This document shows positions 9,694-32,538 of a stretch of DNA of 64,000 bases, piece after piece. The DNA is taken from positions 62,001 through 126,000 of the forward strand of contig JAAYAJ010000064.1 in the NCBI GenBank assembly GCA_012719455.1, in the 5' to 3' direction. The notes under the pieces were generated by a model. The model saw nothing but the letters and a program-made list of their open reading frames with translations. It was not told where the DNA came from and ran no database searches. Numbering within the stretch: position 1 is the stretch's first letter; every line of letters begins with the position of its first letter. Made by a program: the position numbers and the translations under genes. Origin of the DNA: Acidobacteriota bacterium (GTDB lineage: Bacteria > Acidobacteriota > UBA6911).

Positions 9694-10479
9694 CTATCCC
9701 AGCGCCACGTCGAGCGTCATCATGACCGCAAAGCCCAACATGGCGCCCATGGTCGCGATATCGGTGTTCTTTTCGGCCTGGGATTCGGGGATCAGTTCCT
9801 CGATGACGACGAACATCATGGCCCCGGCGGCGAACGAAAGCGCATAGGGGAGGATCGGGCGCATCCATAGCACGGCGGCGGCCCCCACCACCCCCGCGAT
9901 CGGCTCCACGATCCCCGACAGCTGCCCGTACAGGAAGCTCTTGCCCCGGGAGAGCCCCTCGCGCCGGAGGGGGACGGCTACGGCGATCCCCTCGGGGAAA
10001 TTCTGGATGCCGATGCCGAGCGCCAGCACCACCGCGGCGGAAACCGTGGCGGAGGAAAGACCGAAAGCCGCGGTTCCGAAGGCCACCCCCACGGCCAGCC
10101 CCTCGGGAATGTTGTGCAGGGTGATAGCCAGCACCAGCAGGACGCTCCGGCGCCACGAAGTGGGAATCCCCTCCGCCTCGTCGAGTTCCATGCCCGGGTG
10201 GAGGTGCGGCAGCACCCAATCGATCAGGCGCAGGAAAAGGCCGCCGAGCAGGAACCCTGTCACCGCAGGGACCCAGGACAGCGACCGGTTGGTTTCCTCC
10301 GCCATTTCGATGGCCGGAGCGAGCAGCGACCAGAAACTGGCCGCGATCATCACCCCGGCGGCAAACCCCAGCATGGCATCCAGCACCTTGCGATTGATGG
10401 TCTTGAAAAAGAAGACCACGGAGGCGCCGAGCGCGGTGGCGCTCCAGGTGAACAGGGTGGCCACCAGGGCCTGCATCAC
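9694..10479 (-). CDS. ZIP-family divalent metal transporter
   Basis: Inner-membrane metal (zinc/iron-type) importer of at least 261 residues with about eight membrane helices. Both signature metal-site helices are present: [10 protein letters not shown] in the fourth and QNFPEGIAV in the fifth. The annotated start is GTG at 10479, but no ribosome site precedes it. Ten codons further upstream, AGGAGG stands five bases before an in-frame ATC (10509-10507), and the peptide encoded there ([11 protein letters not shown]) matches the usual N-terminus of this family, so translation may begin at ATC. Convergent with the M28-like gene, six bases apart. Confidence 0.9.
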
Positions 10480-10813
10480 GGGATTCAGCGAGATGAACCA
10501 GTCTACGATGGGAACCTCCTAACGGGCCTGGAGTTTTTCGGCGACCGCATCGATTCGATGCACCTGTTCTCCGGCCGCATTTCTGACCTCCGCCGACGCA
10601 CGCCAAAGGAAGTCCAGCTTCCCGTCGGTCCATTGTTCGCCGTCGGCGCTTCCTTTTCACCCAGGCGGCCGGACCCCGCCGCCCGTCGCAGTGTTGATAT
10701 CATTATCCCCCAGGAAACGCCGAAAGCAAATGCGCCCCTTGCCTTCCCGGGCCCCATCGGGCAACCTACAGGGGAGTCCCGGGAGGCTGTCCGGGAACCA
10801 ACCGGGGGAGAAC
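10480..10813. other. Intergenic region without a recognised gene
   Basis: 334 bases between the divergent ZIP transporter and seleno-thioredoxin genes. It includes the probable N-terminal extension and ribosome site of the ZIP gene (to 10520). The rest should hold both promoters; I see no convincing -35/-10 pair and no conserved-looking reading frame. Confidence 0.5.
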
Positions 10814-11350
10814 ATGCCCATGGAAGCGAAAAACCGGTGCCCAAAATGCGGACACGGTTCGGATGAGGCGTTTGCCGAATGCCCCGGCCGCGGTGCGGAA
10901 CAGAATCCGGGGCCGGGTTATGCGAAAAACAAAATCACCCTCATCATGCTGCTCTTCCTCGCCGCCTGGGGGATATGGGCGTGGATCGGGCACGATTCCG
11001 GCGCCGGGAAGCGGGGCGCGCGCTCCGGGCTCCGGATCAGCGCGGGGGAGCGGGTCGACCTCGCCGCCCACCTGGCCGAGGGAGCGTACACGCTGTTTCT
11101 CTTCTACGCCGACTGGTGACCCTCCTGCCGCAAGATACTGCCTCAGTTGGAGGCGGCCGATGCACAATCCGATTTTTTCGAACTGCGGGAGATCGACATC
11201 ACCTCCTGGGAATCATCCGTGGCCGACCAGTACAACATCCGCAGCATCCCTCACTGCATGATCTACGGCCGTGAAGGCGAGTTGAAGGAATCGGGTCCGG
11301 ACGTCTGCTGGGCCGTCGTGGAGAACCCGTCGACCCTGCTGCGGCACTGA
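10814..11350 (+). CDS. Thioredoxin-like selenoprotein (in-frame TGA = Sec102)
   Basis: Read through TGA at 11117-11119, this frame encodes 178 residues. In order: a partial zinc-ribbon (CPKC at 9-12, CP at 23-24, last Cys lost), one membrane helix (about 41-58), and a thioredoxin fold (about 75-175). The fold has the strand TLFLFYADW before the site, W-U-P-S-C as the active site (Sec102, Cys105), and the cis-Pro loop SIPHC after it. TGA sits exactly at the nucleophilic Cys position of WCxxC, and homology continues in frame on both sides. A SECIS-type hairpin follows (11138-11156). The start is ATG at 10814 after GGGGGAG; ATG 10820 is an alternative. It should face the periplasm as a membrane-tethered disulfide or peroxide reductant. 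Automatic callers would report two fragments. Confidence 0.85.
11138..11156 (+). promoter_or_regulatory. Candidate bacterial SECIS element for Sec102
   Basis: CTGCCTC pairs with GAGGCGG (seven pairs, one G-U) around the loop AGTTG. The loop starts 25 bases after the TGA and has G among its first two bases. Both points match the known rules for bacterial SECIS hairpins that bind SelB. Confidence 0.75.
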
Positions 11351-11440
11351 CCCGCGGACTCCCGTTTTAGAGAGTACCCATCCTGCATGAAAACCGGTAT
11401 CATTGTTCCGGATGTCATAATTTGGCCTGGAGGAGACAAA

Positions 11441-11767
11441 GTGTTACAGATTACCGAAAAAGCAAGCGAGATGATCAAGCTTTACCTGAAGGACAGGGAA
11501 GAAGCCCCGTCCATCCGGCTCATGCTGAACGAAGGCGGTTGCTCGGGACCCTCCGTGGGCATGGTTCTGGATGAGTCAACGGATAAAGACGTGTCGTTTC
11601 AAGAGCATGGAATTACCGTGGTCGTGGACAAGGAATTCCTGGAACAGATCAAGCCCGTTACGATCGATTTCGTGTCAACCCCCATGGGAGAGGGGTTTCA
11701 AATCTCCTCCAACCTGCCGAAACCCGCGAACGCCTGCGGCTCCTGCGCCGGGTGCTGCAGCTCCTAA
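11441..11767 (+). CDS. HesB/IscA-like protein
   Basis: 108-residue HesB/IscA-like protein. The motif NEGGCSGPSVGM holds Cys34; in known HesB-like selenoproteins the same position is Sec, so this is the Cys form. The C-terminus is Cys-rich (CGSCAGCC, Cys99, 102, 105, 106). These Cys may bind iron or an Fe-S cluster. The start is GTG at 11441 because GGAGGA lies directly upstream; an ATG at 11387 in the same frame lacks support. It lies 90 bases after the seleno-thioredoxin and ends in a clear terminator, suggesting co-transcription and a shared redox role. Confidence 0.85.
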   Translation: MLQITEKASEMIKLYLKDREEAPSIRLMLNEGGCSGPSVGMVLDESTDKDVSFQEHGITVVVDKEFLEQIKPVTIDFVSTPMGEGFQISSNLPKPANACGSCAGCCSS

Positions 11768-30639: not shown

Positions 30640-32538
30640 ATGAAGCACCTAATCGCTGGGACGGCGGGGCACATCGACCATGGCAAGAGCGCGCTGGTCC
30701 GGGCGTTGACGGGGGTAGACCCGGACCGCTTGAAGGAAGAGCAGCAGCGGGGGATCACGATCGACCTGGGGTTCGCCCACCTCGACCTGGGAGACGTCCA
30801 GATCGGGTTCGTCGACGTCCCGGGGCACGAGAAGTTCGTCAAGAACATGCTCGCCGGGGTGGGGGGGATCGACTTCGTGCTCCTGGTCATCGCCGCCGAT
30901 GAATCGATGATGCCGCAGACACGGGAGCATTTCGACATCTGCCGCCTCCTCGGGGTCTCCGCCGGAATCGTGGTCATCAGCAAGATCGATCTCGTGGACC
31001 CGGAGATGCTGGAGCTGGTGATCGACGAAGTCACCGAGTCGATGGCGGGCTCCTTCCTGGAAAAGGCGGAGATCATCCCCGTCAGTTCCAGGACCGGCGC
31101 GGGGATCGACCGGCTCAAGCAGTCGCTCCACGCCCTGGCGCTGGGCACCCCGCCGCGGCCCGCCAACCGGCTGCTCCGGCTCCCCATAGATCGCGCCTTC
31201 AGCATCCACGGCTTCGGCACCGTGGTGACCGGCACGCTGACCTCCGGCGAGATCCAAAAAGACCAGGAAATCGAGCTCGTGCCGGGTGGGCTGACCGCCA
31301 GGGTGCGCGGGCTGCAGGTCCACAACCTGATGACCCCGCGGGCCGTGGCCGGCCAGCGCACGGCGGTCAATCTCCAGGGGATCGACCTCGGGCAGATGGA
31401 ACGCGGGATGGTCGTGACGGTCCCCCGTCTCTTCCGCTCCACCAGGATTCTGGACGTCCGCCTGTCACTTCTGCCCGACGCCAAGCCGCTGAAAAACCTG
31501 GTCAAGGTCAGGTTCCACCAGGGGACGCTGGAGGTGCTCGCGCGCGTCGCCCTGCTCGGGCAGGACACCCTCGCCCCGGGCGAGACCGCTTACGCCCAGC
31601 TGAGGCTGGACAAGCCCGCCTTCTGTCTCCACAACGACCCTTTCATCATCCGGCGCTTCTCCCCCACCATCACCATCGGCGGCGGCCGCATCCTCCACCC
31701 GAACCCGTCCAAGCACAAGAGCACCGACCGGCGCACCCTCGCCGCACTCAAGGAACTGGACCGGGGGGACCTCGCGGCCAGGATCCCGGTGCTCATCGGC
31801 ACCGACGCCAAGAGGGCGATGTCGGTGGGAGAGCTGAATTCGCTCCTCGGGCTGCCGGGACCCGAAATCACGCGCATCTGCTCCGACCTGGCGCAAGCGG
31901 GGAGCATCGTCATGATCCCGGCGCCCTCCCCAATCCTGACGCTCCCCTCGACGGTGGCCGACCTGCAGAAGGAGACCCTGGCGCGCGTCACCGCGTTCCA
32001 CAAGAAGAACGAGCTGCAGAAGGGGATTTCGAAGGAAGAACTGCGCAAGCGGATCTACGACGACGTCCCCCCCGAAATCTTCCGCCACTGCCTTGAAAAG
32101 ATGGTGGAGCGGCGGCAGATCGTCTTTCTCGGGGAATCGGTCTCCCTGTACGGCAGGGAAATCCAGCTGACGGCGGAGGACGAGAAAGTGCGGGACATGA
32201 TCGAAACCGAGGTCCGGCAGGCGGGCTACCAGCCCCCTGCCATGGCGGAACTGCAGGGGGCCATCCCGGCCGACGCCGCGGCCGTCCGCCGCATCTTCTT
32301 CTGGATGCTCAAGGAGAAGATCCTGGTGAAGCTGTCCGACGACCTCATCTACCACCGCGACACGCTCGAGGAGATGAAGGGTCGGATCCGGGGGAAGTTC
32401 GCCCCGGGAACCCGGTTCGGGGTCGCCGAATTCAAGGACCTCTTCGGGATCACCCGCAAGCACGCCATCCCCCTGCTCGAGCACCTGGACCGGGAAAAAT
32501 TCACACGCCGCCTGGGCAACGACCGGGTGCTGGTCTAG
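30640..32538 (+). CDS. selB: Selenocysteine-specific elongation factor SelB
   Basis: Carries Sec-tRNA to the ribosome at UGA codons marked by SECIS hairpins. 632 residues. EF-Tu-like GTPase: G1 GHIDHGKS (10-17), RGITIDLGF (G2), VDVPGHE (G3), ISKIDL (G4). After G2, the domain goes directly into SelB-type features rather than EF-Tu ones. Domains II-III follow to about 345. The C-terminal part (about 370-632) is a string of winged helices that bind SECIS RNA. It stands alone: selA, selC and selD are not in the window. Its presence supports Sec insertion in the two TGA-containing genes here. Confidence 0.96.
   Translation: MKHLIAGTAGHIDHGKSALVRALTGVDPDRLKEEQQRGITIDLGFAHLDLGDVQIGFVDVPGHEKFVKNMLAGVGGIDFVLLVIAADESMMPQTREHFDICRLLGVSAGIVVISKIDLVDPEMLELVIDEVTESMAGSFLEKAEIIPVSSRTGAGIDRLKQSLHALALGTPPRPANRLLRLPIDRAFSIHGFGTVVTGTLTSGEIQKDQEIELVPGGLTARVRGLQVHNLMTPRAVAGQRTAVNLQGIDLGQMERGMVVTVPRLFRSTRILDVRLSLLPDAKPLKNLVKVRFHQGTLEVLARVALLGQDTLAPGETAYAQLRLDKPAFCLHNDPFIIRRFSPTITIGGGRILHPNPSKHKSTDRRTLAALKELDRGDLAARIPVLIGTDAKRAMSVGELNSLLGLPGPEITRICSDLAQAGSIVMIPAPSPILTLPSTVADLQKETLARVTAFHKKNELQKGISKEELRKRIYDDVPPEIFRHCLEKMVERRQIVFLGESVSLYGREIQLTAEDEKVRDMIETEVRQAGYQPPAMAELQGAIPADAAAVRRIFFWMLKEKILVKLSDDLIYHRDTLEEMKGRIRGKFAPGTRFGVAEFKDLFGITRKHAIPLLEHLDREKFTRRLGNDRVLV

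Follow-up and report, generated by a model that had tools for sequence, protein, structure and literature searches.

The question raised by this locus is whether a TGA codon within an otherwise continuous thioredoxin-like reading frame marks the end of a protein or is read as selenocysteine (Sec, U). The host is an uncultured Acidobacteriota bacterium, and the window, by which we mean the whole stretch of 64,000 nucleotides that was analysed, lies inside its 2.79-Mb draft genome (G000). A sequence-only reading had described a read-through frame of 178 residues at 10814-11350 with its TGA at the nucleophilic Cys of a thioredoxin site, a cis-Pro loop (SIPHC) and a membrane tether preceded by a degenerate zinc ribbon. 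The sequence and its translation largely bear this description out, as the TGA at 11117-11119 is the sole interruption of the frame, which reads MPMEAKNRCPKCG...FLFYADW-U-PSCRKILPQLE...NIRSIPHCMIYG...LLRH and comprises the following parts:

10804-10810, plus strand: likely ribosome-binding site GGGGGAG, 9 nt 5' of the ATG at 10820
10820-11350, plus strand: candidate Sec-thioredoxin gene with orthologues, its start at the conserved ATG 10820 and its real stop a TGA at 11348-11350
10838-10891, plus strand: N-terminal zinc ribbon CPKC...CPGR, degenerate here
10934-10990, plus strand: single transmembrane (TM) helix, residues 41-59 counted from 10814 by hydropathy and 40-59 in the structural model
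11030-11293, plus strand: thioredoxin domain (Pfam PF00085, 43 bits against a cut-off of 23.5)
11117-11119, plus strand: in-frame TGA, predicted Sec (U102), at the nucleophilic-Cys position of WCxxC
11126-11128, plus strand: resolving Cys105 of U-P-S-C, invariant across 28 homologues
11249-11251, plus strand: cis-Pro146 of the thioredoxin fold (SIPHC), invariant across 28 homologues

Two points of that description need amendment. The frame stands but its start is moved to the conserved ATG 10820, giving 176 residues; the in-frame ATG at 10814, a little further upstream, has no ATG counterpart in the related species G004, and a G-rich stretch resembling GGGGGAG occupies the same place in G004 and G006. 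Likewise the zinc ribbon is degenerate in the window protein (CPGR) but not as a general trait, the ribbon being intact (CPEC...CPAC) in both of these species. The single TM helix ahead of the PF00085 domain is seen by hydropathy as well as in an AlphaFold model (mean pLDDT 83, with the thioredoxin domain mostly above 90), which also places U102 just before the helix 103-118, and a Foldseek search of this model against the PDB matched thioredoxins. The active site W-U-P-S-C is furthermore the U-x-x-C pattern of the Sec-thioredoxins (PF00085, UxxC). None of the curated NCBIfam models covers the window thioredoxin above cut-off: the protein reaches 38.2 bits with the canonical thioredoxin equivalog TIGR01068, under the cut-off of 96.8, and among SaoT and the other named NCBIfam Sec thioredoxin-like families nothing matched with an E of 1 or below, save TsoB at a far sub-threshold score. 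Two further cysteines, C148 (11255-11257) and C165 (11306-11308), are invariant in the window protein and its two sister proteins and missing from the aligned homologues (SIPHF and others), and a second redox or metal site at these positions is possible.

Orthologues are found in G004 and G006, two of the nine other species of the genus, with 78% protein identity, the TGA at the same codon and a conserved gene order around the gene. From the TGA through the hairpin discussed below, the sequences of the three species differ at just two adjacent bases. After the TGA the changes number 12, 6 and 26 at codon positions 1, 2 and 3 (sum of the three pairs), dN/dS is 0.17-0.35 as against 0.37-0.57 ahead of the TGA, and 75% of codons are identical in all three species as against 46% ahead of it. 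We can conclude that purifying selection acts on the part following the TGA, which is better conserved than the part preceding it. These observations bear on the notion of a pseudogene or sequencing error, in which a Cys thioredoxin would have been broken by a nonsense TGA. Such a notion agrees with the standard code, which truncates the frame at the TGA (ORF 10691-11119), but it is made very improbable by the facts that the same TGA is present in the assemblies of three separate species, that selection continues past it, and that the frame holds no other stop or frameshift. Even less probable is an arrangement of two genes, with a short membrane protein ending at the TGA and a separate small protein downstream. 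A TTG-started ORF of 67 amino acids does exist at 11147-11350, but the codons from the TGA up to 11147 (PSCRKILPQ) have hardly changed in the sisters and supply the rest of the thioredoxin active site, and the homologues are continuous single proteins.

A search for homologues carrying Cys or an aligned TGA had been proposed as a check on the selenoprotein reading, and homologues do span the position with one or the other, none being found that end there. The subfamily profile matches 39 of 396 genomes of the phylum, and in an alignment of 28 rows the U position is Cys in 24, the TGA members being the window protein, G004, G006 and G348, while W132 is invariant along with the resolving Cys and cis-Pro146. 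The zinc ribbon-TM-thioredoxin layout recurs in the Cys homologues L044, L047, L053, L055, L057, L060 and L061, and other homologues have short TM or lipoprotein-type N-termini, some ending LFSCAS. The former share with the window protein its architecture and the motif DW-x-SP(V/I/L)A-x-Q(Y/F)...SIPH, but have Cys instead of Sec in a C-P-P-C active site and a 7-residue insert (NRKGxxG) missing from the Sec clade. The suggestion that the architecture itself may be new is therefore not upheld, since Cys versions with a zinc ribbon, one TM helix and a CPPC thioredoxin occur in three other Acidobacteriota families (f23, f35 and f54); the architecture is unusual, not unique.

The Sec form is narrowly distributed, occurring in 3 of the 10 species of the genus and 3 of the 38 genomes of the class, in addition to one distant genome (G348), and none beyond those four was found in the genus, the class or the family of G348. 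A profile search with the three Sec orthologues returned the G004 record as the sole close relative. The thioredoxin of G348 (L072:4352-4873), from a different Acidobacteriota family and without a counterpart of its type in 13 other genomes of that family, resembles the window protein in being TM-anchored with an in-frame TGA (W-U-G-G-C) and a hairpin, but is only about 33% identical and has no zinc ribbon. In the tree the four TGA members form one group with support 92/96; G348 is a long branch, and its placement is therefore uncertain. A match in G215 was considered as a further TGA member and rejected, as its TGA lies outside the active site, which reads W-C-A-P-C.

The presence of a hairpin after the TGA with the loop AGTTG at +25 and G among its first two positions, as had been claimed, is confirmed:

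11138-11156, plus strand: candidate bacterial SECIS hairpin CUGCCUC-AGUUG-GAGGCGG, identical in three species, with a similar one in G348

Bacterial SECIS elements have an apical loop of 3-14 nt that lies 16-37 nt past the UGA and has G as one of its first two bases, and the hairpin at 11138-11156 agrees with these rules, its 5-nt loop (11145-11149) starting 25 nt past the TGA with G as second base. The G348 hairpin AUGCCUC-GGGUC-GAGGCAU lies at the same offset (loop at about +25) and differs from that of the window by one pair changed on both sides (C-G to A-U) and one changed on one side (U-G to U-A). In this GC-rich window an equally or more stable hairpin under the same rules is nevertheless found at 5.1% of 6000 random positions, and a fold of 49 nt is not significant (z = -0.4), so that the hairpin taken alone is weak evidence. 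Neither the window nor the stretch 10400-11450 matched any Rfam family. What raises recoding above chance is the TGA in the sisters, the Cys in distant homologues and the selection past the TGA.

The next gene downstream provides further evidence on the hairpin:

11441-11767, plus strand: HesB/IscA-like gene of the Se-type family (NF038090, 111 bits against a cut-off of 85)

This gene has a Cys codon (TGC, 11540-11542) in the window and TGA in both sisters (L077:6105-6428 and L078:6298-6621), the motif being GGC-SGPS in the former and GG-TGA-SGPS in G004 and G006. The sister genes carry a hairpin, UGACUC-UGGAU-GAGUCA, with the loop likewise 25 nt past the TGA, and no such hairpin exists in the window, where the best one has -1.4 kcal/mol as against -7.1 in the sisters. 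The window copy, having neither TGA nor hairpin, is a natural control, and its contrast with the intact thioredoxin hairpin of the same genome argues well for the thioredoxin hairpin being maintained. With two sisters against one, the change was probably from Sec to Cys here, and conversion of this kind has been described before in HesB-like proteins (PMC1794560). A HesB-like neighbour was not found within 1.5 kb flanks of the distant Cys homologues.

Decoding of the TGA furthermore depends on selenocysteine machinery, and indeed the genome has selA (contig C40), selD (C54) and a tRNA-Sec with anticodon UCA (C87), the genes whose absence would have spoken against the selenoprotein reading, as well as selB within the window:

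30640-32538, plus strand: selB, Sec-specific elongation factor (TIGR00475, 371 bits against a cut-off of 242)

A tRNA-Sec was also found in G006 and was not found in the draft assembly of G004. The selD gene itself carries an in-frame TGA (AAG-U-AAK) in G000, G004 and G006 (L169, L167 and L168), and SelD is for this reason likely a selenoprotein in its own right. A second Sec set in G000 (L074, C5:5000-17000), consisting of tRNA-Sec(UCA), a selD without TGA, selA and selB, lies near 2-hydroxyacyl-CoA dehydratase-like genes; a related locus in G001 of the same genus (90% over the tRNA and 70% over 1.2 kb) makes simple contamination look less likely. That TGA is read through at this locus would also agree with an organism-wide reassignment of the codon to an ordinary amino acid, but the probability of this is close to nil: at least seven nearby genes end at TGA, including hypA, hypB, trmD and the Sec-thioredoxin gene itself, no in-frame TGA occurs in the housekeeping genes looked at, the residue aligned with the TGA in homologues is Cys, and Sec machinery is present.

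The selenoprotein reading thus survives every computational test proposed for it, homologues spanning the TGA and the sel genes being present. We consider it very likely that the gene encodes a selenoprotein, namely a single-pass membrane-anchored thioredoxin and proposed periplasmic disulfide reductase, in which UGA 11117 would be decoded as Sec by SelA, SelB, SelD and tRNA-Sec with the hairpin at 11138-11156 as the directing signal. Computation strongly supports the recoding of the TGA, the fold, the place of U in it and the one TM helix; the side of the membrane, the electron donor, the substrate and any link to the HesB-like protein are what we infer. In the proposed mechanism the zinc ribbon would be cytoplasmic, and the thioredoxin domain would face the periplasm. 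U102 would there be the nucleophile that attacks the disulfide of a substrate, or a substrate with some other oxidised sulfur or metal, and the mixed selenenylsulfide so formed would be resolved by Cys105. A membrane reductase of the DsbD type would then reduce the oxidised Se-S bridge. A DsbD-like protein, named by analogy with L016, is encoded in G000 (C68:7478, 600-aa frame), and the Sec-thioredoxin may be an exported disulfide reductase.

The charges of the window protein are themselves ambiguous as to topology, Lys and Arg being found on both sides of the TM helix with four on the C-terminal side. The latter would fit a selenoprotein whose thioredoxin domain is cytoplasmic and reduced by thioredoxin reductase instead of a DsbD-type protein. 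This is unlikely, if by some way the least improbable of the alternatives considered here, since export is indicated by homologues that have either lipoprotein-type signals or a clear bias of positive charge to the N-side (L044, L045, L047 and L053). It is on account of these lipoprotein-type relatives, and of zinc-ribbon relatives with clear N-side positive charge, that we favour a domain outside the cytoplasm.

To our knowledge few selenoproteins have been described for Acidobacteriota. Acidobacteria are known carriers of selenoproteins (PMC12013277, PMC1794560), Sec-thioredoxin (PF00085, UxxC) figures among the listed families of selenoproteins (PMC13188914, PMC9312934), and a 2026 inventory of prokaryotic selenoproteins includes both Sec-thioredoxins and HesB-like selenoproteins (PMC13188914). 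The gene is a real one and belongs to this already known kind, having in common with the family a thioredoxin domain with U where the nucleophilic Cys would be, a resolving Cys and a SECIS-like hairpin after the UGA. It differs in its N-terminal zinc ribbon, perhaps also in its TM anchor, and in falling well short of the TIGR01068 cut-off (38 as against 96.8 bits). The HesB-like/IscA selenoproteins (NF038090, TIGR01911) are a different protein, represented here by the adjoining gene, with Sec in both sisters and Cys in the window. Plausible rather than probable, and put forward tentatively, is the further notion that the Sec form of this exported zinc-ribbon/TM thioredoxin constitutes an undescribed selenoprotein subfamily forming a unit with its HesB-like partner, the Sec/Cys exchange of the latter having been caught between sisters.

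Standard annotation cuts such genes at the UGA, and their active site is consequently missing from databases. In the adjoining gene pair of the three sister species, one gene has kept its Sec codon together with the hairpin while its neighbour here has Cys and no hairpin, which makes the pair a compact case for the study of Sec gain or loss. For Acidobacteriota, the locus would provide an exported thioredoxin subfamily with a Sec form.
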